A DNA stretch of 64,000 nt, taken from contig CADCII010000001.1 of the NCBI GenBank assembly GCA_902801515.1, positions 62,001 to 126,000 of the forward strand. The letters are read 5' to 3'. Positions within the stretch are counted from its first letter, which is position 1. Each line of letters begins with the position of its first letter. Under the pieces are notes generated by a model. The model was not told the DNA's origin. It did no database searches and worked only from the letters and a program-made list of their open reading frames with translations. This document shows positions 24,721-40,155 of the stretch, one piece after another. The stretch comes from an uncultured Lachnospiraceae bacterium (lineage in GTDB: Bacteria; Bacillota; Clostridia; Lachnospirales; Lachnospiraceae). A program made the position numbers and the translations under genes.

Positions 24721-24750
24721 GCGGCGCAGAGGCTATCTCCTCTGCGCCGC
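24721..24750. terminator. hairpin between convergent genes
   Basis: A perfect 12-bp GC-rich stem (24721-24732 with 24739-24750). It overlaps the LysR gene's last codons. The best U tract lies on the minus-strand side (AGTCTTTG), so it terminates LysR transcription at least. Confidence 0.55.
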
Positions 24751-25739: not shown

Positions 25740-25795
25740 ACAACAGCCATAATCTTGTTTAAAATATTTAAAAAGGACGAAAACGGAGGTATATT

Positions 25796-26326
25796 ATGGC
25801 TGTTTATAAGCAAAAGATACAGATTAAATCCCATGGCGGAACACCGACTTTCGTCAATATAACCGAAGAGGTCAAAAAGGCGATCGCAGAGTCGGGGATC
25901 AGGAACGGGATCGTAACCGTTATCTCTCCGCACACTACCTGCTCCGTGTTTTTTGAGGAGTATGTCCATGACGTACTTCCCGACGGAACGGAGTATCTTC
26001 AGAGGGATCTGAACAGAGTCCTTGAGAAGATCATCCCGGATCAGACGGAAGCTCCTTCTGAAGCAACCTACCTGTATCCCGGCGAGAAACACTATGAGGC
26101 TGTCGAGAGCTGGCCGGATGCCGCGTCTTATCTCCCGGGAGGAGACAGAACGGCTCTCTACAACTGTGATGCGCATCTGAAGGCTACGATGCTTGGCTCG
26201 AGCGCCACTCTTGAGGTGGATGAAGGCAGGATGGCAGTCGGCCCGACAGGATATGTGTATTTTGTGGATTTCGACAGAACCCGTGAACGTACCAGAAAAT
26301 GCAGCATCATCGTGATGGGAGAGTGA
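25796..26326 (+). CDS. YjbQ/UPF0047 family protein (first copy)
   Basis: A 176-residue protein of the YjbQ family, sometimes annotated as a secondary thiamine-phosphate synthase from a side activity. The conserved core ISPHTTCSVFFEEYVHDV and the later NCDAHLKATMLGSS supply the His and Cys residues that line the family's pocket; the C-terminal TGYVYFVDFD is typical. A GGAGG site precedes ATG 25796. It opens the carbohydrate locus and has a paralogue at 38479, which argues for a role in the sugar pathway rather than in thiamine synthesis. Confidence 0.82.
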   Translation: MAVYKQKIQIKSHGGTPTFVNITEEVKKAIAESGIRNGIVTVISPHTTCSVFFEEYVHDVLPDGTEYLQRDLNRVLEKIIPDQTEAPSEATYLYPGEKHYEAVESWPDAASYLPGGDRTALYNCDAHLKATMLGSSATLEVDEGRMAVGPTGYVYFVDFDRTRERTRKCSIIVMGE

Positions 26327-26333
26327 GGGGATT

Positions 26334-27026
26334 ATGAAGGTTAAAAGTCCGTTTCTGGTAGTTAACCCGAAGTCTTATCTGTATGGACAGAAGAGTCTGG
26401 AACTGGCAAAGGCAGCCGATGAGACCGCTGCCGCAGTGGGGATTCCCGTTCTGTTCACCTGCCCGTATGCCGATATCCGGCTGATCCGCGAGAATACGGA
26501 GCATGTTATCGTATGCGCGCAGTCTATGGATCCGCTGACACCGGGACGCGGGATGGGGCACATTCTTCCCGAATCACTGAAGGAAGCAGGTGCTGACGCT
26601 GTTTTCCTGAACCACGCGGAAAACACGAAGACCCTGACAGAACTCTATGCCTGCATTCGCAGGGCAAAGGAACTGGATATGTTTACCGTTGTCTGCGCGG
26701 ACAGCGTCACTGAGGCAAAGGCAGTCTGCTGTCTTGGCGCTGATGCGGTGCTTGCCGAGCCTACAGACCTGATCGGTACAGGACAGGTGGCTGATGACTC
26801 CTACACGATCGATACGGTGAAGGCACTGCATGAGATCGACCCTGAGGTTCTTGTGATGATCGCCTCCGGCGTAACGACAGCGGATGACTGCTACAATGTG
26901 ATCCATCTGGGAGCCGACGGAACCGGGGCTACGTCCGGGATCCTGAAAGCCCCGTCTCCGGCAGTCCGGATCAGAGAGATGGCGGAAGCGATCGCGAAGG
27001 CAGGGCGTGAGCGCGGATTACTGTGA
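26334..27026 (+). CDS. triosephosphate isomerase-like sugar-phosphate isomerase
   Basis: A 230-residue TIM barrel of the short, archaeal-type TpiA family. Candidate catalytic residues are the Lys of VNPKSY, the His of LNHAEN and the Glu of LAEPTDLIGTG, and a phosphate-binding loop lies near DGTGATSG. Proteins of this type in erythritol/threitol loci (LerI, EryH) isomerise tetrulose phosphates; given the Dha-type kinase downstream, I infer a similar role rather than glycolytic TIM. It follows yjbQ by 7 bp. Housekeeping TpiA is expected elsewhere in the genome. Confidence 0.78.
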   Translation: MKVKSPFLVVNPKSYLYGQKSLELAKAADETAAAVGIPVLFTCPYADIRLIRENTEHVIVCAQSMDPLTPGRGMGHILPESLKEAGADAVFLNHAENTKTLTELYACIRRAKELDMFTVVCADSVTEAKAVCCLGADAVLAEPTDLIGTGQVADDSYTIDTVKALHEIDPEVLVMIASGVTTADDCYNVIHLGADGTGATSGILKAPSPAVRIREMAEAIAKAGRERGLL

Positions 27027-27048
27027 ACACGTCTGAAAAATGAAAGTA

Positions 27049-27093
27049 ACATCCGGGGTACGATTTTGGTCTGTCGATGACCGGACCGGATGT
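27049..27093 (+). other. intercistronic RNA hairpin before the binding-protein gene
   Basis: An 8-bp outer stem (27049-27056 with 27086-27093) encloses an inner GGTC/GACC hairpin. No T run follows. It sits 40 bp before the binding-protein start and could be a processing or attenuation site that separates its expression from the upstream genes. Confidence 0.45.
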
Positions 27094-27132
27094 CGCTGAT
27101 ATATTCTCTATAACTCAAAAGGAGGAATGCTT

Positions 27133-28146
27133 ATGAAAAAGAAACTGATGTCCCTGTTGCTTGCCGGATCCATGATTGCCGGACTGCTGGGCGGTACTAT
27201 GACCGCGAAGGCAGAAGATAACGACTTCACCATCGTTACGATTGTTAAACTGACTGGTGTTGCGTGGTTCGACCGTATGGAAGAAGGCGTTAACAAGTTT
27301 GCTGAGGATACTGGTGTTGATGCTTACCAGATTGGTGACACGACTGCTGACCCGGCTGCTCAGGTGCAGAAGATCCGCGAGGCAATGGATGCGGGCGCTG
27401 ATGCAATCTGCGTTGTTCCGAACTCAACAGAGTCACTGGAAGAAGTATTCAAAGAAGCCCGTGAGAAGGGCATCATCGTAATCGCTCACGAAGCTTCCGA
27501 TGTCCAGAATGCAGACTACGATATCGAGGCATTTGACAATGCAGCATATGGTCAGCACTTCATGGAAGAATACCTTGGACCGATGATGGAAGGAAAGGGC
27601 AAATACACCACCTTCGTCGGCTCCCTGACCGCTACTTCCCACAATGAATGGGTAGATGCTTCCGTTGCTTTCCAGGAAGAGAACTATCCGGATATGGAAC
27701 TGGTTTCCAATAAGAACGAGACCACTGAAGACTCAGAGAATGCTTACAACATCACGAAGCAGCTGCTTCAGAGTGATCCGGACATCGTCGGCTTCCAGGG
27801 CTCCGCTATGACGGATATCCCGGGTGCTGCACGTGCGATCGAAGAGATGGGTCTGCAGGATTCCACCTTCGCAGTAGGAACTTCTCTTGTTTCGGTTTCC
27901 GGCCAGTATCTTGAGACCGGCGCTATCGACAAGATCTCCTTCTGGGATCCGGCTCTGGCAGGATATGCAATGAATGAGATCGCTCTGAAACTTCTCAAGG
28001 GCGAGGAGATCACAGACGGCATGGATCTTGAGGCAGAAGGCTATCAGGGCCTGCTGCTCAAAGAGAACGACAAGGGCGCGAAGGTCCTCTACGGACAGGC
28101 GTGGATCGATGTCGACAAGGACAACATGGGCGACTATGACTTCTAA
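27133..28146 (+). CDS. sugar ABC transporter substrate-binding protein (RbsB/RhaS-like)
   Basis: A 337-residue type I periplasmic-binding-fold protein delivering a sugar or polyol to the importer that follows. It begins with a clear signal peptide: Lys-rich start, hydrophobic core to about residue 24, then AKA-E cleavage. The mature part has the RbsB/RhaS pattern TADPAAQVQKIREAMDAGADAI and GFQGSAMTDIPGAARAI. There is no lipobox cysteine, which is unusual for a Gram-positive binding protein. ATG 27133 is chosen because GGAGG is 7 bp before it; ATG 27127 is too close. A hairpin lies on each side of the gene. Confidence 0.88.
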   Translation: MKKKLMSLLLAGSMIAGLLGGTMTAKAEDNDFTIVTIVKLTGVAWFDRMEEGVNKFAEDTGVDAYQIGDTTADPAAQVQKIREAMDAGADAICVVPNSTESLEEVFKEAREKGIIVIAHEASDVQNADYDIEAFDNAAYGQHFMEEYLGPMMEGKGKYTTFVGSLTATSHNEWVDASVAFQEENYPDMELVSNKNETTEDSENAYNITKQLLQSDPDIVGFQGSAMTDIPGAARAIEEMGLQDSTFAVGTSLVSVSGQYLETGAIDKISFWDPALAGYAMNEIALKLLKGEEITDGMDLEAEGYQGLLLKENDKGAKVLYGQAWIDVDKDNMGDYDF

Positions 28147-28211
28147 TTTTAGAGATATAGAATAAAGCAAAATCGTATCTTCTTTAATCAGCAGATCAAT
28201 TTGCTTTTTGC

Positions 28212-28247
28212 GAGGGACTGTTATGGAGGATGTCATAACAGTCCCTC
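28212..28247 (+). other. intercistronic stem-loop after the binding-protein gene
   Basis: A perfect 14-bp stem (28212-28225 with 28234-28247) with an 8-nt loop and no T run. Such hairpins after binding-protein genes protect the upstream message from 3' decay or reduce read-through, giving more binding protein than transporter. Confidence 0.6.
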
Positions 28248-28295
28248 CTCCGTATGGAGGGACAACAGAATTCCGATTCGGAAAGGAAGAGACGC

Positions 28296-29810
28296 ATGGC
28301 AGGGAAAACACTAATCAAGCTGAACGGGATCTCCATCTCCTTCGGCGGCGTGCATGCGCTGCAGGATGTGGACTTTGAGGTCCTGGAAGGGCAGACACTG
28401 TGCCTGGCGGGAGAAAACGGCGGCGGAAAATCCACGCTGATCAAGATCATCTCGGGCTTCTACCGGCCGGACAGAGGTACGATCGAGATCGATGGAAAGC
28501 AGTATTCGCACCTGACACCGAAGCAGGCGATCAACCTTGGCATACAGGTCATCTATCAGGATTTTGCCATTTTCCCGAACCTGACCGTGGCAGAGAATAT
28601 TGCGCTCTCAGCGGAACGGCTTGACGGCAGGAAAACGGTCAACTGGAAAAATGTCAGGAAGCGTGCCCAGGAAGCGCTCGACATGATCAATGTAAAAATG
28701 GATCTGGACGCAATCCTCGCTGATCTTCCCGTAGCCAGCAAGCAGCTGGTCGCAATCTGCCGCTCACTGCTGCAGAACGCAAGGCTTCTCATCATGGATG
28801 AGCCGACCACGGCACTCACGAAGAATGAGATCAATTCTCTCTTCAAGGTGATCAGGGATCTGCAGAAGAAGGGAATCTCTGTCATCTTCGTCAGCCATAA
28901 GCTTGATGAGGTCTATGAGGTTGCGGAACAGCTGGTGATCCTGCGGAACGGCAAGAAAGTTATCGAGGGACCGATCCGGGAATTTGACCGGAAACGGTTC
29001 ATTTACTACATGACGGGCCGCGAGATCGAAAGTGAAACATTTGAGGCGAAAAACATCGGATCAGAGCCCGTCCTCGAGGTGAGGAACATCGGGATCAAGG
29101 ATCTGTTTGCAGATATTTCTTTCAAACTTTATGCAGGTGAGGTGCTGGGGATCACCGGACTGCTCGGTTCCGGGCGAAGTGAACTGGCGCGGGCGCTGTT
29201 TAATCTGGAGAAGATCGACACAGGTCAGATTTTCCTGGAAGGGAAAGAGCTGAAACTGAGCAGTGTGAAAGATGCGATCAACGCAGGAATTGCGTATGTG
29301 CCGGAAGACCGGCTGACAGAAGGGCTCTTCATGCCGCAGACGATCTCGCGCAACATGATCTCTGCTGTGATCGAACGCAATCTCAACAAAGCAGGACTGA
29401 TTGACAATGCAGGCGTGAAAGAACGGTCAGCCGAATGGGTAAAGGAACTGAAGGTCAAGACTCCTTCCACGGAGCTGCCGGTACAGGCCCTGTCCGGCGG
29501 CAATCAGCAGAAGGTAGTCCTTGCGAAATGGCTTTCGACGAAACCGAAAGTACTGATCCTGAACAGTCCGACCGTGGGAATTGACGTCGGCGCGAAGGCA
29601 GATATCTACGCCTATACAAGAAGGCTGGCTGAGGAGGGGATCGGTGTGATCATCATCTCGGACGATCTGCCTGAAGTTCTCGATAACTGCAACCGTGCGC
29701 TCATCATGAAGCGGGGCAGGCTGGCCGGTGAATTCGAGACCAGTGAGATGAACGAGACCCGCCTGGCGGATATCCTGGCGGAGGCCAGTGGTAAAGGAGG
29801 TGCTGCGTGA
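28296..29810 (+). CDS. sugar ABC transporter ATP-binding protein (RbsA type, two ABC domains)
   Basis: A 504-residue tandem ATPase energising the permeases that follow. The first domain has Walker A AGENGGGKST and Walker B LLIMDEPTTAL; the second has the degenerate GLLGSGRSE and the signature LSGGNQQK with EDR and D-loop segments. This one-strong, one-degenerate pattern is normal for RbsA/MglA-type proteins (carbohydrate uptake transporter class 2). ATG 28296 follows AAGGAAG; the frame is open for 14 codons upstream without a site. Its stop overlaps the next gene. Confidence 0.93.
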   Translation: MAGKTLIKLNGISISFGGVHALQDVDFEVLEGQTLCLAGENGGGKSTLIKIISGFYRPDRGTIEIDGKQYSHLTPKQAINLGIQVIYQDFAIFPNLTVAENIALSAERLDGRKTVNWKNVRKRAQEALDMINVKMDLDAILADLPVASKQLVAICRSLLQNARLLIMDEPTTALTKNEINSLFKVIRDLQKKGISVIFVSHKLDEVYEVAEQLVILRNGKKVIEGPIREFDRKRFIYYMTGREIESETFEAKNIGSEPVLEVRNIGIKDLFADISFKLYAGEVLGITGLLGSGRSELARALFNLEKIDTGQIFLEGKELKLSSVKDAINAGIAYVPEDRLTEGLFMPQTISRNMISAVIERNLNKAGLIDNAGVKERSAEWVKELKVKTPSTELPVQALSGGNQQKVVLAKWLSTKPKVLILNSPTVGIDVGAKADIYAYTRRLAEEGIGVIIISDDLPEVLDNCNRALIMKRGRLAGEFETSEMNETRLADILAEASGKGGAA

Positions 29811-30811
29811 TGCTGAAGAAAGCAATGAAGACAAATGAGTTTTTTGTGCTGATCGCCCTCGTTGTACTCTGCCTCATCATCGGGATCGCGAACCCGGTAT
29901 TCTTTACGACCGGCAATGTCGTGTCTCTGATGAAGAACAGTATCGTGATGGGAATCATGACGTTTGCGCTCATGCCAGGCATCATTGCGGGAGGAATCGA
30001 TGTTTCCTTCCCGGCCATCGCAGTCTGCGGCATGTTTACCACAAGTAAGATCCTGGACAGTATCGGTTACGGGGGACCGGTGATCCTGCCGATCCTGATG
30101 TCCATCGCAATAGGAACGGTACTCGGATTCCTGAACGGCGTCATCATTACGAGATTCTCTCTCCCGGCGTTCATCGTGACCCTGGGTACTTCTTCCCTGT
30201 ACTATGGCCTTCTGATCACGCTGGTCGGAAGCAAGCCGGTAAACAGACTGTGCAAGCCCATGGAGGATTTCGGAAAGGCTGTCATGATCAGCGGCAGATC
30301 CGGAGCGGTCACCACGACCTGTACCTGGACATTCCTGTTTCTTGTAGCGGTCGCCCTCATCGTATACCTGATCCTGAAGTATACGATGCTCGGCAGAGGC
30401 ATCTACGCAATCGGCGGAAACCGTGTCTCGGCAGAAAGAGCCGGATTCAACGTCACCGGCATCCTGATCTTCGTCTACACCTTTATCGGTGCGTGCGCGG
30501 GTCTCGCCGGAATCTGTCATACAATGCAGGCACGTATCTGCATGCCGACGGATCTGATGGGAAGTGAGATGCTCTGCATCGCGGCAGTCGTCCTGGGCGG
30601 AACCAATATCGCCGGGGGCAGAGGCACCGTTATCGGAACAACACTCGGCCTGATCCTGATTACCGTTGCACGCAGTTCTCTGACGCTGGTCGGCATCGAT
30701 TCTTCCTGGCAGCAGATGATCGTAGGCATCATCATCGTCGCAGGTACGGCACTCTCCGCATACAAGGAACTGAAGAGCAGCCGGAAGATCGCGAAGATAC
30801 TGGAAGACTAG
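29810..30811 (+). CDS. sugar ABC transporter permease, first subunit (RbsC-like)
   Basis: An approximately 333-residue membrane protein with 8 to 10 helices and the BPD_transp_2 pattern; GGIDVSFPAIA and the late VVLGGTNIAGGRGTVIGT, the ATPase-coupling region, are characteristic. AAAGGAGG precedes two adjacent starts, GTG 29807 and ATG 29810, both overlapping the ATPase stop. It pairs with the second permease to form the channel. Confidence 0.9.
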   Translation: MLKKAMKTNEFFVLIALVVLCLIIGIANPVFFTTGNVVSLMKNSIVMGIMTFALMPGIIAGGIDVSFPAIAVCGMFTTSKILDSIGYGGPVILPILMSIAIGTVLGFLNGVIITRFSLPAFIVTLGTSSLYYGLLITLVGSKPVNRLCKPMEDFGKAVMISGRSGAVTTTCTWTFLFLVAVALIVYLILKYTMLGRGIYAIGGNRVSAERAGFNVTGILIFVYTFIGACAGLAGICHTMQARICMPTDLMGSEMLCIAAVVLGGTNIAGGRGTVIGTTLGLILITVARSSLTLVGIDSSWQQMIVGIIIVAGTALSAYKELKSSRKIAKILED

Positions 30812-30824
30812 GGAGGGCTGACAG

Positions 30825-31856
30825 ATGCGCAATGAAAAAGGCTTTGTAAAATATATCAGGGATATCACGCAGGATGCGCGGATGGTGCGGCTCTTTGTCA
30901 TCATGGTGACGGCATTTGTGATTATGGGCGCGGCGAACGGCAAGAAGTTCCTGTCCCTGTCGAATTTCCAGTCGATGGCAAGAACCTTCCCCGAAGTCGG
31001 TATCCTGGCGATAGCCGTTTCGCTGGCTATGCTGCTGGGCGGCATCAACCTGTCCGTGGTCGGCATCGCGAACCTCAGCGGAATCTTCTGCTGCCAGTTC
31101 ATTATCTGGGCCCAGGAGAAGATCGGAATGTGGCCTGCGATCTTTATCGGTCTTGCGATCGCGATGGCCGTCGGAGCACTCTGCGGCCTGCTGAACGGCT
31201 TCCTGATCGCTTATGTCGGAATCCCAGCGATGCTCGCCACGCTGGGAGCCCAGGAAATATTCACGGGAATCGGCGTAGGCGTGACCAAGGGAGCAGCTGT
31301 CTTCGGGACGCCATCCGAGTTTACCTTCTTCGGCGGCGCCTATATCTTCGGCGTGATCCCGATGTCTCTGATCGTCTTCGTGATCGTGGTCATCATCTTC
31401 ACGATCCTTCTTCAGAGAAAACAGTACGGCATGGAACTCTACCTCGTAGGAACAAACTCGAAGGCATCAAGATTCTCAGGTATTAAAAATGAACGTGTCA
31501 TCCTGAAGACGCATGTCTACGGCGGCATCCTCTCAGCAATTGCCGGTATCATCATCGCGTCAGGAACGAACTCAGCCAAGGCAAGTTATGGATCTTCCTA
31601 TGTTCTGCGCTGCCTGATCGTCGCGATCCTGGGCGGAATCAATCCGTCAGGAGGATTCGGCAAGATTACGGGAGTTGTCATGGCTGTACTCACGATTCAG
31701 TTCCTTTCCAGCGGTTTTGGCATCCTGCGTGTAGACAGTTACTTCCAGACATTTGTCTGGGGAGCAGTACTGGTCGGGGATATGATTCTCAACTACTGTC
31801 TGGATAAGCTTGCCGAGAACAGAAAGAAGAAAAAAGCAGAGAAGGAAAACGCATAA
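30825..31856 (+). CDS. sugar ABC transporter permease, second subunit (RbsC-like)
   Basis: A 343-residue homologue of the preceding permease with the same GGINLSVVGIANLSG and AILGGINPSGGFGKITGV landmarks and a Lys/Glu-rich cytoplasmic tail. It starts 14 bp after the first permease. Two different RbsC-type subunits in tandem are typical of the AI-2, rhamnose and tetritol type importers rather than the ribose type with one permease. Confidence 0.9.
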   Translation: MRNEKGFVKYIRDITQDARMVRLFVIMVTAFVIMGAANGKKFLSLSNFQSMARTFPEVGILAIAVSLAMLLGGINLSVVGIANLSGIFCCQFIIWAQEKIGMWPAIFIGLAIAMAVGALCGLLNGFLIAYVGIPAMLATLGAQEIFTGIGVGVTKGAAVFGTPSEFTFFGGAYIFGVIPMSLIVFVIVVIIFTILLQRKQYGMELYLVGTNSKASRFSGIKNERVILKTHVYGGILSAIAGIIIASGTNSAKASYGSSYVLRCLIVAILGGINPSGGFGKITGVVMAVLTIQFLSSGFGILRVDSYFQTFVWGAVLVGDMILNYCLDKLAENRKKKKAEKENA

Positions 31857-31897
31857 CCAAACAGGAACAGTTTTATACACATAAGGAGGAAATGACT

Positions 31898-32905
31898 ATG
31901 CAGAGATTACTTAACAAACCGGAAGATTATGTTGATGAGATGCTGAAAGGCATATATGCCGCATATCCGGACCGGGTGAAATATGTAAACGATGACCTCA
32001 GGTGCTATGTGACAACGAAAAAGACAGAGGGCAAAGTCGGCATCATGACCGGCGGCGGTTCCGGACATCTTCCGCTGTTCCTGGGCTATGTAGGAGACGG
32101 AATGATCGACGGCTGCGCGATCGGCGGAGTATTCCAGTCCCCGAGCGCGGAGCAGATTGCAAACGTGACCAGAGAGATCGACTCCGGTGCGGGCGTGCTC
32201 TATGTGTACGGCAACTATACAGGCGACATCATGAACTTTGAGATGGCAGAAGAACTCGTGGACTTTGACGACATCAAGTGCCTCCACGTGAAAGGCTGCG
32301 ACGATGTGGCATCCGCCGACAAGGGGGATGAAGACAAGCGCCGCGGAGTCGCCGGCATCTATTTTGTTTTCAAATGCGCAGGCGCGGCTGCTGACGCAAT
32401 GCTGCCGCTGGAAGAAGTTGCAAGGATCGCTGAGAAGGCAAACGGCGCAGTGCGCACCTTCGGTGTTGCTCTGTCTCCCTGCATCATTCCGGAGAACGGC
32501 AAGGCTAATTTCTCAGTCAATGAAGGCGAGATGGAACTGGGCATGGGCATCCACGGAGAACCCGGCGTAGAGGTCTGCCCGGTCAAGACAGCGGATGAGA
32601 CCGTAGACTATATGCTGGAGCGTATCCTGAAGGATCTGGAGGCGAAGGAAGGCGACGAGGTTGCAGTCCTTATGAACGGGCTTGGCGCAACGCCGCTTGA
32701 GGAACTGTACATCATGTACCGCCGTGTCAATGAGACGCTGACAGAAAAGGGTATCAAAGTATACTTCGCGAAGCTTGGTGAATTTGCAACATCCATGGAT
32801 ATGGCCGGAGCTTCGGTCTCTGTCATGAAGCTGGATGACGAATTGAAGAAGTATCTGTCACCGGCAGCTGATACACCGTTTATTCACCAGAATGCCATCG
32901 GATGA
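31898..32905 (+). CDS. DhaK-type dihydroxyacetone/tetrulose kinase, substrate subunit
   Basis: A 335-residue homologue of DhaK. It keeps the substrate pocket GGGSGHLPLFLGYVG and the covalent histidine at 219 in GMGIHGEPG (H218 in E. coli DhaK), which forms a hemiaminal with the keto group of the substrate. It therefore handles a short ketose such as dihydroxyacetone or erythrulose. ATG 31898 is chosen because AAGGAGG is 8 bp before it; ATG 31892 is too near. No DhaM phosphocarrier gene is adjacent, so the kinase probably uses ATP or a remote DhaM. DhaL follows with overlapping ends. Confidence 0.88.
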   Translation: MQRLLNKPEDYVDEMLKGIYAAYPDRVKYVNDDLRCYVTTKKTEGKVGIMTGGGSGHLPLFLGYVGDGMIDGCAIGGVFQSPSAEQIANVTREIDSGAGVLYVYGNYTGDIMNFEMAEELVDFDDIKCLHVKGCDDVASADKGDEDKRRGVAGIYFVFKCAGAAADAMLPLEEVARIAEKANGAVRTFGVALSPCIIPENGKANFSVNEGEMELGMGIHGEPGVEVCPVKTADETVDYMLERILKDLEAKEGDEVAVLMNGLGATPLEELYIMYRRVNETLTEKGIKVYFAKLGEFATSMDMAGASVSVMKLDDELKKYLSPAADTPFIHQNAIG

Positions 32906-32922
32906 AAGAGAGGATACCTGCC

Positions 32923-33552
32923 ATGGAGATAACCAGAGAAGACGTTGTCCGTTTTATTGAAAAAGCTTCAGATGAAATGAACGCGAATAAGGATTACCTG
33001 ATTGAACTGGATGCGAATTCCGGCGACGGGGATCTGGGACTTACGATGAGCAAGGGCTTTATGGCCGCAAAAGAGAAAGCAGAAGCATCTGAAGAGACAG
33101 ATCTCGGAAAACTGTTCTTTGCAGTGGGATCCGCGATCGCATCTGCCGTTCCGTCAACAATGGGAACCCTGATGGGAAGCGGAATGCTCGGCGCGGCAAA
33201 GGCTCTGAAGGGCAGAGAGAGCCTGGACGCAGATGGTTTTGCCACATTTGCCAAAGGGTATTACGACGGCGTACAGAAGAGAGGAAAAGCCAATCCGGGA
33301 GAGCGTACGCTGCTTGATTCCCTGAAGCCTGCAGCAGATGCTGCCAGGGCAGCTGCCGACGAGGGCTGCGACGATAAGAAAGAGATCGCGAAGAAAGCCT
33401 ATGAGGCAGCGTGCGCAGGAGTGGAAGCCACAAAAGAGATGGCTCCTGTTTACGGCAAGGCATTTGTGCACAGAGAGAAACTGCACGGTGTGCCGGACCA
33501 GGGGGCGATCGTAGGAAGTCTGTTATATAAAGCATGGGTGGAAGCACTCTGA
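32923..33552 (+). CDS. DhaL-type kinase, nucleotide-binding subunit
   Basis: A 209-residue all-alpha DhaL domain; the segment LIELDANSGDGDLG carries the Asp cluster that binds Mg and the adenine nucleotide, followed by the lid residues in MGTLMGSGMLGAA. ATG 32923 is supported by GAGAGG; an ATG at 32902 overlaps the DhaK stop but lacks a site. Together with DhaK it forms one kinase, most likely for a C3-C4 ketose. Confidence 0.88.
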   Translation: MEITREDVVRFIEKASDEMNANKDYLIELDANSGDGDLGLTMSKGFMAAKEKAEASEETDLGKLFFAVGSAIASAVPSTMGTLMGSGMLGAAKALKGRESLDADGFATFAKGYYDGVQKRGKANPGERTLLDSLKPAADAARAAADEGCDDKKEIAKKAYEAACAGVEATKEMAPVYGKAFVHREKLHGVPDQGAIVGSLLYKAWVEAL

Positions 33553-33569
33553 AGGAGGAATGCAGCTTT

Positions 33570-34379
33570 ATGTGGATGAAGGAACTATTCGGCGTTGAGA
33601 AGCCGATCATTGCCATGTGCCATATGCAGCCTATGCCGGGAGATCCGGCATACGATGCGGACGGCGGTATGGAGAAGGTGCTGGAGTGCGCCAGGAAAGA
33701 TCTTCTGGCACTTCAGGAAGGCGGCGTTGACGGTATCATGTTCTCAAATGAGTTCAGCCTGCCTTATCTCACAAAAGTGGAAACCGTGACAGTCGCCAGC
33801 ATGGCTGCCGTGATCGGAGAACTGAAAAGTGAGATTAAGATTCCCTACGGGGTCAACTGCCTCTGGGATCCGGTTGCCTCTATCGATCTTGCGGTCGCCG
33901 TAGGCGGCAAGTTCATTCGCGAGATCATCACAGGAGTTTATGCTTCGGATTTCGGACTGTGGAATACCAACGTCGGAGCTACTGTCCGCCATAAGATGGC
34001 AGTGTCCGGGAAGGACATCAAGATGCTCTACAATATCGTCCCTGAAGCCGCGACTTACCTGGGCGGAAGGGATATCGAGAGCATTGCCAAGACGACAGAG
34101 TTCAATAATCATCCGGACGCACTGTGCGTTTCCGGACTTACAGCGGGATCAGAGACCGATACACAGATCCTGATGCGTGTCAAAAATGCCGTAAAGCATA
34201 CTCCGGTGCTCTGCAATACCGGATGCAATAAGGACAATATTAAAAGACAGCTTCAGTATTCGGACGGCGCGGTCTGCGCAACGACATTCAAGGTTGACGG
34301 GATATTTGAGAATCCTGTCGATGTAAACCGCGTGAAAGAATTCATGGCGGAGGTAAAAGATTTCCGTGCCGGACTGTGA
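33570..34379 (+). CDS. BtpA/SgcQ family protein
   Basis: A 269-residue TIM-barrel-like protein of the BtpA family, whose founder affects photosystem I stability in cyanobacteria and whose E. coli member SgcQ lies in a sugar locus. The N-terminal KPIIAMCHMQPMPGDPAYD and the VGGKFIREIITGVYASDFG segment are family hallmarks. Its reaction is not established. In this position, between a ketose kinase and an FGGY kinase, a role as aldolase, lyase or isomerase in the pathway is plausible. ATG 33570 follows AGGAGG. Confidence 0.82.
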   Translation: MWMKELFGVEKPIIAMCHMQPMPGDPAYDADGGMEKVLECARKDLLALQEGGVDGIMFSNEFSLPYLTKVETVTVASMAAVIGELKSEIKIPYGVNCLWDPVASIDLAVAVGGKFIREIITGVYASDFGLWNTNVGATVRHKMAVSGKDIKMLYNIVPEAATYLGGRDIESIAKTTEFNNHPDALCVSGLTAGSETDTQILMRVKNAVKHTPVLCNTGCNKDNIKRQLQYSDGAVCATTFKVDGIFENPVDVNRVKEFMAEVKDFRAGL

Positions 34380-34456
34380 TCCGGATGAACTCAGCGGGGG
34401 AAGGTTCCCTCGCTGAGATCTGGTTTGGGCAGGAACAGAATAGTTGGGGGATGGTT

Positions 34457-35992
34457 ATGTCAGAAAAATATATAGTGGGATTCGATATGGGCACAGGCAG
34501 TGTCCGGGTTGGCGTCTATAAACTGGACGGTCATGAGATAGGCTTTGCCGCGACGGAATATGAGACGATCCACGAGCATCCGGGCTGGGCAGAACAGCGC
34601 CCCATGGACTGGTGGAACGGTCTTCAGAAGAGCATGAAGGCTGCCATGGAGATGGCGGGCGTCGACAAAGAGGACATCATAGCGATCGGATATGATGTGA
34701 CCTGCTGCTCCGTCATGCTCTGCAAGAAGGACGGAACGCCGCTGCGCGACTGCCTGATCTGGATGGATGTACGCTCCGCAAAGGAGGCAGAGGAGATCGC
34801 CGCAACCGGTGATGACGCTCTTAAGTTCAACAGTTACGGCAGTGTGTCCGCAGAGTGGATGCCCTGTAAGGCATTGTGGCTGAAGCGCCATGAGAGAGAG
34901 AATTATGATGCGGCTGATGTGGTCTGCGAATGCACAGACTGGATCACCTACATGCTGACCGGAAGATGGACCGCGAGCATGTCCAATATATCCGCACGCT
35001 GGTACTACGATTCCAGAAACGGCGGATTCCCGAAGTCTCTGTATGAGGCTGTCGGACTGGGAGACGTTCTGGAGAAGTTCCCCCAGGATATTCATTTCCT
35101 CGGAGATTCACTGGGAACACTTACGAAAGAAGCCGCGCAGTTCCTCGGACTGAGCGAGAATACGATCGTTGCCCAGGGCGGCCCGGATGCATTTATCGGC
35201 TGCTTCGGACTGGGCGTGATCTCGCCCGGAAAAGTTGCTCTGATCACAGGGTCCAGCCACCTGATCCTCGGCCTGACAGATGTGTTCAAGTACTCAAAGA
35301 GCGGTATCTTTGGTCCGTTCCCGGGAGCTATCCGCGAGGAATACGGCATGGTAGAGGGAGGACAGACATCTTCCGGCTCCATCGTCAGCTGGTTCAAGAA
35401 TAACTTCTGCGGCGACCTGAAGGATAAAGAAGGAGGCGCCTACGGGGAACTGAACCGGCAGGCAGCGAAGCTGGAACCGGGTTCTGACGGACTTCTGGTG
35501 CTCGACTGGTGGCAGGGCAACCGGACGCCATACACGGACGGAAGTATCCGGGGCAATATCTACGGCCTGTCCCTTGGACATACGCAGGGGCATCTGTTCC
35601 GCGCTATCATGGAAGGCGTGGCTTACGGGACAGAGAATGTATTCCAGTCATTCCGTGAAGCGGGGTATGAGGTAAATGAGATCTACATGGGCGGCGGCAC
35701 TACGAACAGTGACCTTTTCATGCAGATCCATGCGGATGTATCCAATGTTGTCGTAAACGTTCCGGAAGATCCTCAGTCCTGTGCGCTCGGAAGCGCGATC
35801 CTTGCGACGATCGCCGCCGGCGTCTATGACACTTTTGAAGAGGCTGTCGCGCATATGGTCCGCTACAGCAAGAGGATCGAGCCGAACCTGGAAAACCATA
35901 AGAAATATCAGCAGTATTTTGCACAGTACCGCAAGGCGTACGATACCTTCGGACAGTGGATGCGGGATACCAGCGCTGTAAATGTGCATTGA
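34457..35992 (+). CDS. FGGY family carbohydrate kinase
   Basis: A 511-residue sugar kinase with the two actin-like domains: FDMGTGSVRVGVY (phosphate 1), the substrate motif LIWMDVRSAKEA, and the C-terminal MGGGTTNSDLFMQIHADV with the second signature. This subfamily phosphorylates polyols, ketopentoses or related sugars; the exact substrate is open, but residues near EWMPCKALW suggest a xylulo- or ribulokinase-like pocket. ATG 34457 is preferred because the G5 tract directly abuts ATG 34451. The UlaE-like gene begins 6 bp after its stop. Confidence 0.88.
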   Translation: MSEKYIVGFDMGTGSVRVGVYKLDGHEIGFAATEYETIHEHPGWAEQRPMDWWNGLQKSMKAAMEMAGVDKEDIIAIGYDVTCCSVMLCKKDGTPLRDCLIWMDVRSAKEAEEIAATGDDALKFNSYGSVSAEWMPCKALWLKRHERENYDAADVVCECTDWITYMLTGRWTASMSNISARWYYDSRNGGFPKSLYEAVGLGDVLEKFPQDIHFLGDSLGTLTKEAAQFLGLSENTIVAQGGPDAFIGCFGLGVISPGKVALITGSSHLILGLTDVFKYSKSGIFGPFPGAIREEYGMVEGGQTSSGSIVSWFKNNFCGDLKDKEGGAYGELNRQAAKLEPGSDGLLVLDWWQGNRTPYTDGSIRGNIYGLSLGHTQGHLFRAIMEGVAYGTENVFQSFREAGYEVNEIYMGGGTTNSDLFMQIHADVSNVVVNVPEDPQSCALGSAILATIAAGVYDTFEEAVAHMVRYSKRIEPNLENHKKYQQYFAQYRKAYDTFGQWMRDTSAVNVH

Positions 35993-35998
35993 CGGATA

Positions 35999-36841
35999 AT
36001 GGAAAAAGCTATGTATAAATACTCTCTGGGAATGTACGAGAAGGCGCTTCCGGATGATATGCCTCTGGAAGAGAAGATGCAGCTTGCCAAAGAGAGCGGA
36101 TATGATCACGTTGAGTTCTGTGTGGATCTCAATGAAGAGCGCGCGGCCAGGCTGAACTGGTCTGTGGAGGAGAGGGAGAAGTGGCGCAGCCTCTCGGTGA
36201 AGATGGGTGTTCCGTTTACCACCTTCTCCCTGAGCCTTCTGCGGAAAACTCCTCTCGGGCTTCTGGACCGGGAGAAGAATCAGGAAGCATTCCGCGTCAT
36301 AGACGAGGGCTGCGCTCTTGCGGCCGCCCTTGGAAGCCGTGTCATGCTGGTCAACGGATATGACGTATATGATGAACCGTCGACCCCGGAAACCGTTGCC
36401 AGGTTCTATGAGAATCTGCCGGTCGCAGTTGGAATCTGCGCATACCATGGAGTGATCATGGGGATCGAAAATGCGGAGATGCCATTCTGCTCAACCATCA
36501 GTGATGCCGCAGAATTCTGCCGCAGGGTGCCGTCGCCTTTCTTCCGTGTATACGGGGATATCGGCAATACGACCAATGCCTTTGCCGGCGACGCGGACCG
36601 TACGGCAGCCGATCTGCTGAAGGGGAAAGGGTATGTTACGTCTCTTCATTTAAAAGATTCCATCCCCGGTGAATACCGCTTCAGGGATTACGGGAAGGGA
36701 CATGTGGATTTTCAGCGCTGCATCGATGCTGCGAAAGAGATCGGTGTGCATATCTTTACTGCAGAGATCTTCTGCGATACATCGAAAGATTATGTCAGCT
36801 ATGTCGCTGAAGTGTCACGCTTTTTGAGAGGTTATTTCTAA
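35999..36841 (+). CDS. UlaE/SgbU-like L-pentulose-5-phosphate 3-epimerase
   Basis: A 280-residue xylose-isomerase-type TIM barrel. It matches E. coli UlaE at the start (LGMYEKALP), VNGYDVYDEP, YGDIGNTTNA and LHLKDSIPG, including the metal-binding Glu, Asp and His positions. UlaE converts L-xylulose-5-phosphate to L-ribulose-5-phosphate. Next to an FGGY kinase this suggests phosphorylation then epimerisation of a ketopentose or related sugar. The start may be ATG 35999 or ATG 36011. Confidence 0.85.
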   Translation: MEKAMYKYSLGMYEKALPDDMPLEEKMQLAKESGYDHVEFCVDLNEERAARLNWSVEEREKWRSLSVKMGVPFTTFSLSLLRKTPLGLLDREKNQEAFRVIDEGCALAAALGSRVMLVNGYDVYDEPSTPETVARFYENLPVAVGICAYHGVIMGIENAEMPFCSTISDAAEFCRRVPSPFFRVYGDIGNTTNAFAGDADRTAADLLKGKGYVTSLHLKDSIPGEYRFRDYGKGHVDFQRCIDAAKEIGVHIFTAEIFCDTSKDYVSYVAEVSRFLRGYF

Positions 36842-36859
36842 ACAGAAAGGAATCGGACT

Positions 36860-37351
36860 ATGATCAGGATCAAAGCAGAAAAACTGACACCGGAGGCATT
36901 TGCCCCGTTTGGCACCTATACCAATGTCATGAACCCGGAAGGGTATCATATCGGAGGGGAGTTCCATGACTTCTACCGCGACCAGGCAAAGTTTTATTCT
37001 GACAGCCTGCTTCCGGTCGGCCTGTCTCCGCTGACTGTCAGGAATCACGGATATGTCGTGGAAGGCGTGGAGTGGCACAATCATACCTGTGAAGGTATGA
37101 TGCCGGTCAACGATGACGCTGTGATGCATGTTTCGCTTGCAAGCGGTGACTATGATGTCAGCCAGACCAGAGCCTTTATCATCCCGAAGGGGACAATTAT
37201 TACGATCTTCCCGGCGGTCTATCATCTGACGCCGCTCCCGGTTCATGAGAAAGAACTTCACGCACTGATCATGCTGCCGGAGAGATGCTATGTCAATGAC
37301 TTCTTCTACAAGGATCTCGATGAAGACAGTCGTTTTGAGATCGAGCTGTAA
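36860..37351 (+). CDS. ureidoglycolate lyase (AllA)-like beta-barrel protein
   Basis: A 163-residue protein resembling the AllA/cupin-like superfamily: PEAFAPFGTY near the N-terminus, VEWHNHTCEGMMPV with a His-rich turn, and AFIIPKGTIITIFPAVYHLTPLP, the strand that in AllA precedes the conserved W-H-H segment. AllA releases urea from ureidoglycolate, but no other ureide gene is present here, so I infer a related carbohydrate-side reaction such as lactone, carbamoyl or isomerase chemistry. AAAGGA precedes the ATG. It is 18 bp after the UlaE-like gene. Confidence 0.65.
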   Translation: MIRIKAEKLTPEAFAPFGTYTNVMNPEGYHIGGEFHDFYRDQAKFYSDSLLPVGLSPLTVRNHGYVVEGVEWHNHTCEGMMPVNDDAVMHVSLASGDYDVSQTRAFIIPKGTIITIFPAVYHLTPLPVHEKELHALIMLPERCYVNDFFYKDLDEDSRFEIEL

Positions 37352-37388
37352 TGCGTGATCTGCCGGTTGGTATGTTTGGGGGGCAGAT

Positions 37389-38456
37389 ATGAGAGATTTG
37401 GATAAACGCTGGCAGAAGCTGGGTGAGATGCTGGTCAATTATTCACTGAAGGTCCGGCCCGGTGAGAAAGTCATGATCATGATGCTTGAGCCGGAGACAG
37501 TCGCCCTTGCGGAGGCGGTATACGGCGAGGTTATCAAAGCGGGCGGCTATGCCCAGATCCAGTACATGAGTGAAGCGATCAAGCACCGTATCCTGGCATA
37601 TGGCAATGAGGAGCAGATCGGCTGGATTCCCGGGATCGAGGCATACGGCATGGAGTGGGCTGACTGTTATCTGGGCCTTCGCGGTGCTTTCAACCTGGAT
37701 GAATGCTGGGATATCCCAGCTGAGAAAGTCGCCCTCTATCAGAAAGCAATGGGGAAGATCAGCACTCTGCGCTGGCAGAAGACCAGATGGGCGCTGGTCC
37801 GTGTTCCAAATGAACATTTCGCGCAGCAGGCCCATGTGAGCTGCGACAGGATGATGGATCTGTTCTTTGACGCCTGCACCCTCGACTGGGAAGCATACAA
37901 GAAAGAGAACCAGAGGATCGCGGATATCCTGGACCAGGGACAGTCCCTGCGCATCACCGGAAGAAAGACCGACCTGTCATTTTCCTTCGGGTCCAATAAA
38001 TGGATCGTGATGGACAACACACAGAATATTCCGGACGGCGAGACTTATGTAACTCCGCTGTGGGAGAGCGTGCAGGGGCAGATCTATTTCGAGCTTCCTG
38101 CCACCCTCGGGGGCAAGGTGATGAACGGTGTATACCTTGAGTTTGACAGGGGACATGTGGTCCGGGCGGATGCAGAGACGAATGCGGATTTCCTGAATAT
38201 GATCATCCAGGGCAATGAGAATGCGGACCGTGCGGGCGAGATCGCGTTCGGAACAAACCCGTACATCAATATCTGTACGACCGATGTGCTGATCGATGAG
38301 AAGATCGGAGGTACGATGCATCTTGCCCTCGGAAGGCCTTATGACGGGAACTACAATTCTCCGATCCACTGGGACCTGATCAAGGATACACGCACGCAGT
38401 CGGAAGTGTTCCTGGACGGCAGGCTGATCTTCAGGGACGGAAAGTTCACAATCTGA
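37389..38456 (+). CDS. M29-family aminopeptidase-like protein
   Basis: A 355-residue member of the thermophilic aminopeptidase (M29) family. Landmarks are RPGEKVMIM near the start, a WESVQGQIYFELPA segment, the metal-ligand region RAGEIAFGTNP, and the terminal GGTMHLALGRPYDG and NSPIHWDLI. It is about 50 residues shorter than typical M29 enzymes. A peptidase is unexpected inside a sugar locus, but peptidase-like genes also occur in the E. coli sgc and frv sugar loci, so it may process a glycoconjugate or have changed substrate. Confidence 0.78.
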   Translation: MRDLDKRWQKLGEMLVNYSLKVRPGEKVMIMMLEPETVALAEAVYGEVIKAGGYAQIQYMSEAIKHRILAYGNEEQIGWIPGIEAYGMEWADCYLGLRGAFNLDECWDIPAEKVALYQKAMGKISTLRWQKTRWALVRVPNEHFAQQAHVSCDRMMDLFFDACTLDWEAYKKENQRIADILDQGQSLRITGRKTDLSFSFGSNKWIVMDNTQNIPDGETYVTPLWESVQGQIYFELPATLGGKVMNGVYLEFDRGHVVRADAETNADFLNMIIQGNENADRAGEIAFGTNPYINICTTDVLIDEKIGGTMHLALGRPYDGNYNSPIHWDLIKDTRTQSEVFLDGRLIFRDGKFTI

Positions 38457-38478
38457 GCAGAACATGCAGGGAGGTTTT

Positions 38479-38988
38479 ATGGTCAGGCACAAAATACTGA
38501 AGTTCGAGACAAAGGGGAAGAAGACAGAGTATATCAATATCAAAGATGATGTGATTGCGTTTGTCGAGGAGAGCGGTATCAAGAACGGGATCCTCAACGT
38601 ACAGTCTGCTCATACGACCTGTGCCGTGATCTTTGAGGAGATGGTGCACGATGTGGACATCAAGGGGGATGAGTTCCTTCAGGTCGATCTGAACCACGGT
38701 CTGGGGAAGGTTTTCCCGAAGCAGGAGTCAGATGATTATTATTACCGCTATCCGGGTCCGCTCCATCAGGAGTTTGGAGATCGGATGGATCCGGACGTGC
38801 ACGAAGACATGCGGACACTGCTCAATGCCCATTCACATCTGAGGGCTTCCCTACTGGGGGCAAGCGAGAGTTTTGCCGTGATCGACGGCGTTGTACAGAC
38901 AGGGCAGTGGGGGTATATATATTTTGTAGATTTTGATGACCTTCGGCCCAGAAACCGGAAATGTATCCTGACGATCGTAGGAGAATGA
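38479..38988 (+). CDS. YjbQ/UPF0047 family protein (second copy)
   Basis: A 169-residue paralogue of the protein at 25796. The pocket motifs are retained (SAHTTCAVIFEEMVHDV, LLNAHSHLRASLLGAS, WGYIYFVDFD) but the middle differs: it has DYYYRYPGPLHQEFGDRM where the first copy has YLYPGEKHYEAVESWP. Two diverged copies at opposite ends of one locus point to two related substrates or a hetero-oligomer. ATG 38479 follows GGGAGG. Confidence 0.82.
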   Translation: MVRHKILKFETKGKKTEYINIKDDVIAFVEESGIKNGILNVQSAHTTCAVIFEEMVHDVDIKGDEFLQVDLNHGLGKVFPKQESDDYYYRYPGPLHQEFGDRMDPDVHEDMRTLLNAHSHLRASLLGASESFAVIDGVVQTGQWGYIYFVDFDDLRPRNRKCILTIVGE

Positions 38989-39036
38989 GTACAATATGAT
39001 GAGATAGTGTGCTTCAGATTGAAGGAGGTACCTGCT

Positions 39037-40155
39037 GTGGAGACAAGACCGTATGTCGACTGGGAAACAATGAATTCGTTTATGATTGACGTTTTCAAGG
39101 CTTACGGGGTACCGGAGGAAGACGCTGCGATCTGTACAGACGTGCTTCTGGAATCAGACCGCAGGGGAATAGAAAGTCATGGCTGTAACCGGTTCAAACC
39201 GATCTATCTGGACCGTATTGAAAACGGGACACTTCTGCCGGTGACGAAACTGGATATCGTAAAGGAGACGCCTACGACGGTAGTTATGGACGCCAATAAC
39301 GGTATGGGTATGGTGGCAAGCTGGCACATGATGAATATGCTCATTGAGAAGGCATCAAAGTACGGGATGGCAGGAGGAACGATCTATAACTCTACGCATT
39401 ACGGAATCGCCGGCTACTGGACAACGATGGCTGAGAAGGCGGGTATGATCGGAATCTCAGGAACCAATGCGAGGCCCTCCGTAGCGCCGACCTTCGGCGT
39501 GGAACCTATGATGGGCACCAATCCGCTGACATTCACCATGCCTACGGATGAAGAGTTTCCGGTTAATTTCGATTGTGCTACCAGCATTGTGCAAAATGGA
39601 AAGATCGAGTTCTATGAACGAAACGGTGAGCCTACTCCTGCGGGGCTGGTGGTGACAGAGGATGGCAATACACTGACCGATTCGGGGACGATCCTCAGAG
39701 AAATGAGAGCCGGACACTGTGCTCTGCTTCCGATCGGAGGACTGGGGGAAAAGACCGGCGGCTATAAGGGGTATGGATTCACCATGATCGTAGAGATCCT
39801 GTCCGCCGCTCTCGCCGGAGGACCTTTTATGAAGGAACTGAGCGGAAAGAACCCGGATGGCACCAACCGAATGTACCGGCTGGGACATTTTTTCTTTGTT
39901 ATTAATCCGGAATTCTTCGGCGGTCTGGATGTTTTCAAAAAGACGGCCGGCGATATCTGCCGTACGCTTCGTGAATCAAAAAAGTCACCGGGTGCGGAGC
40001 GTATCTACACTGCCGGAGAGAAAGAATGGCTGGCATGGCAGGAGAGGAAAGACAAAGGAGTGCCTGTCGGAGAGGCGATTCAGAAAGAACTCACCGGACT
40101 GAGAGACAGATTCCATCTTCCTTACAGATTCTCCTTCGAAGAAGACGCAGAATAG
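39037..40155 (+). CDS. Ldh family (malate/L-lactate dehydrogenase-type) oxidoreductase
   Basis: A 372-residue NAD(P)-dependent dehydrogenase of the LDH2/MDG2 family, which includes ureidoglycolate, sulfolactate and 2,3-diketogulonate dehydrogenases. The catalytic histidine lies in NSTHYGIAGYW, and DRRGIESHGCNRF and GTNPLTFTMP form the substrate and cofactor regions. The start is GTG 39037, 8 bp after AAGGAGG; the frame upstream is open but lacks a site. The last 34 bp overlap the convergent MFS gene. It probably oxidises or reduces a 2-hydroxy or 2-oxo acid of the pathway. Confidence 0.87.
   Translation: METRPYVDWETMNSFMIDVFKAYGVPEEDAAICTDVLLESDRRGIESHGCNRFKPIYLDRIENGTLLPVTKLDIVKETPTTVVMDANNGMGMVASWHMMNMLIEKASKYGMAGGTIYNSTHYGIAGYWTTMAEKAGMIGISGTNARPSVAPTFGVEPMMGTNPLTFTMPTDEEFPVNFDCATSIVQNGKIEFYERNGEPTPAGLVVTEDGNTLTDSGTILREMRAGHCALLPIGGLGEKTGGYKGYGFTMIVEILSAALAGGPFMKELSGKNPDGTNRMYRLGHFFFVINPEFFGGLDVFKKTAGDICRTLRESKKSPGAERIYTAGEKEWLAWQERKDKGVPVGEAIQKELTGLRDRFHLPYRFSFEEDAE

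Follow-up and report, generated by a model that had tools for sequence, protein, structure and literature searches.

A conserved Lachnospiraceae operon with a TIM-YjbQ pair and a candidate pathway for (deoxy)ketopentose phosphates

We analyzed a 64,000-nucleotide stretch of DNA (the window), positions 62001-126000 of contig C1 in the 3.08 Mb draft genome of an uncultured Lachnospiraceae bacterium (G000), and within it a run of 15 genes at 25796-40155, all on the plus strand. Judging from its recurrence in other genomes, this locus is a conserved sugar-catabolic operon and not a chance mixture of genes. The operon begins with a YjbQ gene and a gene for a triosephosphate isomerase (TIM)-like protein, and this pair belongs to a module of three genes, widespread in Bacillota, whose third member encodes a class II aldolase (the triad). 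The triad is linked to a glucitol-type phosphotransferase system (PTS-gut) and a reductoisomerase of the DXR-II family in roughly half of the loci examined. The recurrence of the operon and that of the triad can be read directly from the genomes compared. The best explanation that we can offer, and a tentative one, is that the pathway moves the carbonyl group of a (deoxy)ketopentose phosphate and then splits the molecule by aldol cleavage.

An operon conserved in eight genomes

Much the same operon, with minor differences, is present in eight Lachnospiraceae genomes (G000, G300, G307, G313, G314, G315, G316 and G317; G307 and G318 are one record), and the operon proteins of the other genomes are 78-100% identical to those of the window. 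Two routes of search were used. Among 19 genomes covered by a search of the genus, BtpA was matched in four and DhaK in nine, so that the operon is lacking in most of this genus. Scanning named genomes with the TIM alignment yielded six loci in Lachnospiraceae metagenome-assembled genomes (L123-L128), with TIMs 86-94% identical to that of the window. In G300, G313, G315 and G316 the operon is in pieces or partly off the contig, and several drafts are incomplete, so that absences carry little weight.

The gene order in the window is YjbQ1, TIM-like protein, solute-binding protein (SBP), ATPase of an ATP-binding cassette (ABC) importer, two permeases, DhaK, DhaL, BtpA, FGGY kinase, UlaE-like epimerase, AllA/DUF4867-like protein, M29-family protein, YjbQ2 and Ldh_2 dehydrogenase (open reading frame (ORF) list, Pfam and NCBIfam). 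Intergenic distances range from -4 to 107 bp, as expected for one transcription unit. A LysR-family gene (24733..25623, minus strand; Pfam LysR_substrate and HTH_1) lies divergently upstream and is the probable regulator of the operon. The most complete copy, in G317 (L219), has the same genes in the same order from the divergent LysR gene through YjbQ2, followed by a class II aldolase. Orthologues of the LysR gene also stand divergently beside YjbQ1 in G314, G315 and G316, but not in G313; those of G317, G314 and G316 are 65-69% identical to the window protein.

The class II aldolase is found at the locus in five of the eight genomes (G307, G313, where it is split over two contigs, G314, G315 and G317), and these operon aldolases are 74-80% identical to that of G307. 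An orthologue is absent from G000 and was not found in G300 (75% complete) or in G316, where the contig ends. The position that the aldolase has in relatives is occupied in the window by the Ldh_2 gene (39007..40155; PF02615, 390.3 bits). Among the window-type loci fetched, this gene was seen only in the window and in G300 (99% identity), after YjbQ2, and we regard it as accessory.

A sequence-only reading of the window had described a mixed set of fourteen same-strand genes making up one uncharacterized sugar or polyol catabolic locus. The shared strand was borne out; the count is 15, as the families listed in that reading themselves sum to. All of the named families were recovered with Pfam and NCBIfam, the AllA-like protein weakly. 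With its single strand, close gaps and recurrence, the run does look like one sugar or polyol catabolic locus. It is not haphazard, as "mixed" might imply, because eight genomes share most of the gene set and its order. A literature search (titles and the beginnings of abstracts, with most subscription papers outside its coverage) brought up no characterized counterpart. The operon is a unit of gut and rumen bacteria, and its pathway is uncharacterized as far as this search reached.

The TIM-YjbQ-aldolase triad

The TIM-like gene of the window (26334..27026) encodes an isomerase of the archaeal type PRK04302 (NCBIfam NF003302, 170.9 bits against a cut-off of 132), whose PDB relatives are the triosephosphate isomerases 1hg3, 2h6r and 1w0m. 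It is separated by 7 bp from its partner YjbQ1 (UPF0047; 25796..26326; PF01894, 92.6 bits). The neighborhood counts given here refer to the best 80 of 525 TIM relatives and are valid for these nearest kin only. In 78 of the 80 loci the TIM gene has a YjbQ gene no more than 2.5 kb away, and in 67 a class II aldolase gene within 4 kb. YjbQ is missing near TIM in L197, a contig of 3.5 kb, and in L178, in whose genome a YjbQ gene stands beside DXR-II on another contig (L290). Thirteen loci have no aldolase nearby: six of the window type, L139, L143, L154, L177, L178, L197 and L199. In the genome of L177 an aldolase gene occurs within the DXR-II operon (L288).

The Lys, His and Glu positions of TIM are kept in all 80 loci and the Asp and metal-ligand positions of the aldolase in 66-67 of 67. 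We take these residues to be the catalytic ones, and since they are kept, the triad TIMs and aldolases are expected to be working enzymes. A 2021 review (PMC7954711, in the part available) describes the function of YjbQ as unknown, and no paper tying YjbQ, TIM and aldolase together was found in the literature search.

In a TIM tree of 81 rows, the seven window-type TIMs form one clade (support 100/99). This clade is nested in one of 54 rows, 37 of which belong to PTS/DXR-II loci. On the tree the label "PTS or DXR-II" changes 14 times, compared with 26.1 times in shuffles; with 14 changes, the association has therefore been gained or lost many times. The sister of the window-type clade consists of two Anaerostipes loci (L164 and L166) with no DXR-II nearby. 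At L166 there are an Aldolase_II gene and a PTS of the galactitol type; two DXR-II genes are encoded elsewhere in the same genome, one of them accompanied by a second aldolase-YjbQ-TIM set (L282). Many TIMs from PTS-fed loci share 78-80% identity with the window TIM, as do, for example, the TIMs of L129 and L140; this suggests that the same reaction may take place in the window.

Association with a glucitol-type PTS and DXR-II

At least one PTS-gut gene lies within 12 kb of the TIM gene in 46 of the 80 loci. A gene for a DXR-II-type oxidoreductase of about 440 residues lies within the same distance in 37, and 36 of these 37 loci also have PTS-gut. The oxidoreductase of L129 (L129:8512-9831) belongs to PF21135 (DRL_cat) and scores 312 bits to structures 3upl and 3upy; 36 more such genes occur among loci L123-L202. 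In the part available, PMC3847144 names 3upy as DXR-II and gives residues that separate DXR-II (DRL) from related oxidoreductases. We checked these residues in the 37 proteins, five of them partial, counting them where aligned. Gly121 (36 of 36), Glu174, Lys191, Lys193 and Arg320 (each 34 of 34) and Thr229 (33 of 33) are kept throughout, and Phe178 and Tyr322 (each 33 of 34) and His250 and Val351 (each 32 of 33) are kept in all but one. Two other dehydrogenase types were surveyed in the 37 loci: a short-chain dehydrogenase/reductase like that of L129 occurs in four and a medium-chain one like that of L175 in one.

Twenty-seven of the 80 loci are neither of the window type nor near PTS or DXR-II. 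They come from 25 genomes, of which 24 were searched (that of L163 was excluded), and DXR-II is encoded elsewhere in 15 of these 24 (in G321 as a fragment only). PTS-gut genes lie near DXR-II in 12 of the 12 such loci fetched, which come from 11 of the 15 genomes. DXR-II was found in none of the eight window-type genomes, including G000, and the positive controls (three DXR-II genomes) were matched for the other seven. This absence is as expected if an ABC/kinase route replaces DXR-II.

The DXR-II family is treated as isoprenoid biosynthetic in the available part of PMC3847144, which lists DXR-II genes from Finegoldia, Listeria and Eubacterium limosum among others. Named carriers among the loci examined here include Anaerostipes sp. 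992a (L175) and Eubacterium callanderi (L173). Its position beside a glucitol-type PTS (36 of 37 loci) suggests a catabolic rather than an isoprenoid role here. The literature search found no paper linking DXR-II and PTS, nor any in which "DXR-II", "deoxyxylulose" and "PTS" occur together.

Some loci carry additional carbon-carbon bond enzymes. Genes for E1 of the pyruvate dehydrogenase (PDH)/acetoin type, suited to acyloins such as 1-deoxy-D-xylulose 5-phosphate (DXP), lie beside PTS-gut and DXR-II in L277 and L292 and near TIM in L200, L197 and L077. At L077:1-8882 the row reads ABC importer gene, E1 alpha, E1 beta, E2, E3, TIM, YjbQ and aldo-keto reductase, an acyloin-cleaving type of complex joined to TIM-YjbQ. 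TktN is present in seven and TalC in five of the 80 TIM loci. As an acyloin, DXP could be cleaved by a transketolase or by a complex resembling acetoin dehydrogenase. The E1 and transketolase variants are thus compatible with DXP as a metabolic hub and do not prove it; FSA/TalC with a split transketolase near some loci, including L274, can be read either way.

Two arrangements of the DXR-II genes may be mentioned. At L292:1082-10317, in Intestinibacter bartlettii, the PTS-gut, DXR-II and E1 genes adjoin ispD and ispF (Pfam), and imported methylerythritol might also feed isoprenoid synthesis in this organism. At L285:4566-8452 two tandem DXR-II genes with an equal score of 745.9 bits flank a SorC-type regulator gene.

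Importer, kinases and epimerase

The SBP of the window (27127..28146) is probably of the ketopentose type, and its closest PDB relatives are 5bra (314 bits), for which the literature search found no paper, and 9i1m (180.9 bits). The latter is AauA with D-ribulose, as given in the available part of PMC12307932. Of the six AauA ligand contacts listed there, Lys37, Trp43, Glu118, His167 and Glu196 are kept in an alignment read by eye, and Ser223 is replaced by Met. The same source, in the part available, describes the D-ribulose systems Rbl of Citrobacter rodentium and Aau of enterohemorrhagic Escherichia coli. Like the window operon, these have an ABC importer with an SBP of this family, and Rbl has an FGGY kinase. 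However, Rbl contains only the kinase and a KpsF-like isomerase besides the importer, whereas the window operon has ten further genes beyond importer and FGGY. The importer of the window is completed by an RbsA-type ATPase (28254..29810; two stretches of PF00005) and two permeases (29807..30811 and 30825..31856; both PF02653).

The DhaK-type subunit (31892..32905; PF02733, 392.9 bits) is followed by a DhaL-type subunit (32902..33552; PF02734, 139.3 bits). In the alignment DhaK keeps the motifs GIHGEPG and YTGD, which are presumably catalytic. The FGGY kinase (34457..35992; PF00370/PF02782) is closest to the ribulokinases and falls below their cut-offs (PRK04123 ribulokinase, 338.9 bits against 428); we propose that it acts on a ketopentose. 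The UlaE-like protein (35999..36841) is a predicted 3-epimerase of the L-ribulose-5-phosphate type (NF009689, 211.4 bits against a cut-off of 200) and matches UlaE (PDB 3cqh) with 145.6 bits. Comparison with relatives favors 33570 as the start of BtpA and 34457 as that of FGGY; the automatically assigned starts (33534 and 34376) probably lie too far upstream.

Parts of the operon also occur on their own. RbsABC with DhaKL alone forms a unit in L096, L097 and L098, and RbsABC with BtpA, FGGY and a peptidase-family gene is found at L081:8535-12020 (M29) and L025:8392-11880 (M42). The closest FGGY orthologue found outside the operon (68% identity) is that of L198 and L201, two loci of one genome in which FGGY and UlaE (60% to the window UlaE) stand beside aldolase-TIM-YjbQ. 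The operon joins modules that also exist apart, in agreement with the earlier suggestion that its two kinases come from two settings.

Proposed pathway

We propose that the RbsABC-type importer would take up a ketopentose, that the FGGY kinase (or DhaKL) would phosphorylate it, and that the UlaE-like enzyme could invert carbon 3 (perhaps a 3-epimerization). Two enediol steps, catalyzed by the TIM-like enzyme and YjbQ1, would then shift the ketone away from carbon 2 in the direction of the phosphate. The resulting ketose 1-phosphate would be split by the class II aldolase into dihydroxyacetone phosphate (DHAP) and a two-carbon aldehyde. Two isomerases would provide exactly the two ketone shifts needed, because the ketone of a pentulose 5-phosphate lies two carbons from the position required by the aldolase. 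The mechanism draws on known enediol and aldol chemistry, and the ketone migration of EryH-type enzymes is a precedent for it.

The DXR-II link suggests DXP as the hub and 2-C-methylerythritol as the PTS substrate. As DXR-II interconverts 2-C-methyl-D-erythritol 4-phosphate and DXP, DXP or its 3-epimer would be the likely hub. PTS-fed bacteria would reach it from 2-C-methyl-D-erythritol, and the window operon from a free 1-deoxypentulose, with DHAP and acetaldehyde as products. Having no operon aldolase, the bacterium of the window would have to rely on another of its class II aldolases, of which there are five, or, with lower probability, on BtpA. A general ketopentose version, giving glycolaldehyde instead of acetaldehyde, is possible as well. 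In the strongest form of the proposal the triad is a dedicated route of DXP catabolism, moving the ketone from C2 to C4 and yielding DHAP and acetaldehyde; DXR-II runs backwards on imported 2-C-methyl-D-erythritol in the PTS-gut loci, and the window holds an ABC/kinase-fed version. We consider this form conceivable but doubtful.

Erythritol was also considered as the substrate of the PTS-gut/DXR-II loci and judged less likely, since its oxidation at C1 would lead straight to erythrose 4-phosphate, with nothing left for TIM, YjbQ and aldolase to do. The sequence-only reading had allowed any C4-C6 substrate for the operon. Within that range, a C5 (deoxy)ketose phosphate is suggested rather than a C4 compound, because the nearest TIM relatives are mostly in PTS-gut/DXR-II loci.

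If the proposal is true, YjbQ would have a role as a sugar-phosphate ketol isomerase, and many DXR-IIs of Firmicutes would be catabolic rather than biosynthetic, which calls for caution in taking DXR-II as a sign of isoprenoid synthesis. Finegoldia magna has DXR-II and no other isoprenoid pathway gene (PMC3847144, in the part available). The presence of DXR-II there, and in bacteria that already have DXR-I, would be explained by the consumption of methylerythritol, which would be a new carbon source in rumen and gut ecology. The triad, a widespread enzyme set on which there is little work, may have a rare methyl-bearing five-carbon sugar as its substrate.

Points against the proposal and alternative explanations

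Several points weigh against the proposed pathway. The scheme is built on sequence comparison. The isomerase role of YjbQ is putative, the NCBIfam name of the family being secondary thiamine-phosphate synthase, and the reverse (catabolic) running of DXR-II in these loci is likewise putative. None of the five class II aldolases that G000 encodes elsewhere is orthologous to the operon aldolase (best 43%). The triad aldolases are more diverged (34-58% to the G307 aldolase, with 3 of 67 below 44%) than the TIMs (57-80% to the window TIM), and the substrate that they cleave may differ. The scheme does not accommodate DhaKL, BtpA, M29, the AllA-like protein, YjbQ2 and Ldh. Given the change of Ser223 to Met, the ligand of the SBP need not be D-ribulose. 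In L078 a gene of the L-arabinose isomerase family accompanies FGGY, TIM and two YjbQ genes, a set that favors an ordinary over a deoxy ketopentose there. DXR-II was not found in nine of the 24 stand-alone-triad genomes searched. In a sample of 295 genomes of the order, 18 have a DXR-II-like match, five of them at 50% identity or more, and five including G000 have this TIM at 44% or more. Only G067 has both DXR-II (at least 50%) and this TIM, and the triad is therefore not the sole partner of DXR-II. The G067 locus L075 carries both the triad set and a transketolase/transaldolase set (the latter two identified by eye). At L274, PTS-gut and DXR-II are followed by FSA/TalC and a split transketolase, with no triad.

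A DhaK-family kinase together with a TIM-like isomerase is the pattern of erythrulose use, and the operon had been likened to erythrulose/erythritol loci for this reason. Here DhaKL would phosphorylate imported D- or L-erythrulose, TIM would shift the ketone as EryH and LerI do, giving erythrose 4-phosphate, and FGGY and UlaE would serve a second sugar. With the EryH/EryI and LerK/LerI pathways the operon does share the DhaK-type kinase, the TIM-like isomerase and an RbsABC-type importer. The existence of separate RbsABC-DhaKL units fits this explanation, and a DhaK-like gene directly precedes aldolase-TIM-YjbQ in L193 (Dak1) and L179. However, a search of the 80 TIM loci, 15 window-type loci and positions 22001-46000 of the window, with L099 and L100 as positive controls, revealed no RpiB-like ORF. 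There is also no tetritol (phosphate) dehydrogenase family among the operon genes, the Ldh_2 gene being limited to the window and G300. The sister genomes carry a separate locus with a fused Dak1-Dak2 kinase and RpiB (L099 of G297, tested with Pfam; L100 of G303, which is alike; L101 of G310, cut at the contig end). L099:8306-15311, which also contains RbsABC-type genes, appears to be the genuine tetrulose-type locus in this genus. The operon and its relatives add YjbQ, aldolase, FGGY, UlaE and BtpA to the known tetrulose systems; the triad aldolase and YjbQ would be left without a role, and the TIM kin lie mostly beside PTS-gut/DXR-II. A tetrulose pathway fits less well than the ketopentose pathway, and we consider it quite unlikely. 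Ordinary pentose use, which we consider unlikely as well, would have FGGY and UlaE channel L-ribulose, L-xylulose or D-ribulose into the pentose phosphate pathway by way of an AraD/UlaF-type enzyme whose gene lies elsewhere; in a second form, such a ketopentose would be taken by a carbonyl-shift/aldolase route to glycolaldehyde. The other genes would be auxiliaries. The similarity of FGGY to ribulokinases (though below cut-off), the above-cut-off score of UlaE, the closeness of the SBP to 9i1m and the gene set of L078 are all in its favor. The UlaE-family epimerase, FGGY kinase and Ldh-family dehydrogenase recall the ula/yia pathways for L-ascorbate and 2,3-diketogulonate. However, the operon, which was the part of G000 searched in this respect, has no UlaD decarboxylase and no UlaF/AraD 4-epimerase (Aldolase_II), and Ldh is not conserved. 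In its first form this explanation leaves the conserved TIM, YjbQ and aldolase unaccounted for, D-ribulose would require the kinase alone, and the DXR-II link goes unexplained.

The operon might instead hold several independent short pathways that share merely a regulator and a transcript. That the triad (in most of the 80 loci), the RbsABC-BtpA-FGGY-peptidase set and the RbsABC-DhaKL set each occur apart speaks for such an arrangement. The modules are nevertheless kept together in eight genomes at the high protein identities given above, and FGGY-UlaE is joined to the triad in L198 and L201 too; independence therefore seems to us about as unlikely as ordinary pentose use. The grouping of BtpA with FGGY, RbsABC and an M29 or M42 peptidase-family gene (L081 and L025) also brings to mind the catabolism of Amadori (glycated) compounds. 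M29, BtpA and FGGY would dismantle amino-deoxy-ketoses and TIM, YjbQ and aldolase would degrade the sugar part; a 1-amino-1-deoxy-ketose would suit a ketopentose-like SBP with the Ser-to-Met change. Yet no fructosamine deglycase or fructosamine kinase family is represented among the operon genes, and the sugar loci sgc and frv contain peptidase-family genes with no known Amadori chemistry. We regard this explanation as very improbable.

BtpA and other genes outside the scheme

The BtpA/SgcQ-family TIM barrel (33570..34379; PF03437, 293.3 bits) is encoded at the locus in seven of the eight window-type genomes. G307 alone lacks it there and has three BtpA genes elsewhere (43-76%). BtpA has no PDB sequence relative at E 0.01. 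Foldseek matched its AlphaFold model (pLDDT 92.5), with comparable scores, to numerous TIM barrels that bind phosphate (PcrB/GGGPS, thiamin phosphate synthase, HisF and KDPG aldolase), and the fold therefore does not decide the reaction. The comparison of G307 (aldolase, no BtpA at the locus) with the window (BtpA, no aldolase) prompted the idea that BtpA substitutes for the aldolase. We rejected this as a general rule, as G313, G314, G315 and G317 carry both and G307 has its three BtpA genes elsewhere; for the window and G300 only, such a replacement is possible.

The association of BtpA with a peptidase-family gene in L025 and L081 is also known from the sgc locus of E. coli. There, as in the window, a BtpA-family protein (SgcQ, a name that NCBIfam joins to BtpA) stands beside a peptidase-family protein, SgcX, which we take to be of family M42, and a sugar transporter. 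However, sgc has a PTS instead of an ABC importer and lacks FGGY, DhaKL, TIM and YjbQ. The M29-family gene of the window (37389..38456; PF02073, 174.2 bits; PDB 2ayi, 48.2 bits) was matched in all seven of the other window-type genomes searched. It is followed by YjbQ2 (UPF0047; 38464..38988; PF01894, 88.4 bits).

The AllA/DUF4867-like gene (36860..37351) matches both families weakly (PF04115, 30.7 bits; PF16161, 30.5 bits). It is present in five of the eight window-type genomes (G000, G300, G307, G315 and G317), in a shifted position between YjbQ2 and the aldolase in G307, and was not seen between UlaE and M29 in G313, G314 and G316. Its structural model was not used (pLDDT 43.9, four sequences).

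Minor features of the locus

Rfam, applied at gathering threshold to 20000-46000 of the window, matched no riboswitch or other RNA family. A promoter and terminator scan gave terminator-like sites at background level (14 found, 12.7 expected) and 25 promoter-like sites compared with 13.8 expected, several of them at 25735-25797, immediately 5' of YjbQ1. Between BtpA and the probable start of FGGY there is a hairpin of 12 pairs (34390-34417), which resembles a terminator but has a poor T tail. A thiamine pyrophosphokinase gene (L224:4472-5128) is inserted between YjbQ2 and Ldh in G300, and a similar-looking gene, identified by eye, is located outside the operon at 23671-24333 of the window. Downstream of the operon is a convergent gene of the major facilitator superfamily (MFS; 40122-41384), and beyond it two more xylose-isomerase-like TIM-barrel genes (PF01261) are found at 42395-44115.

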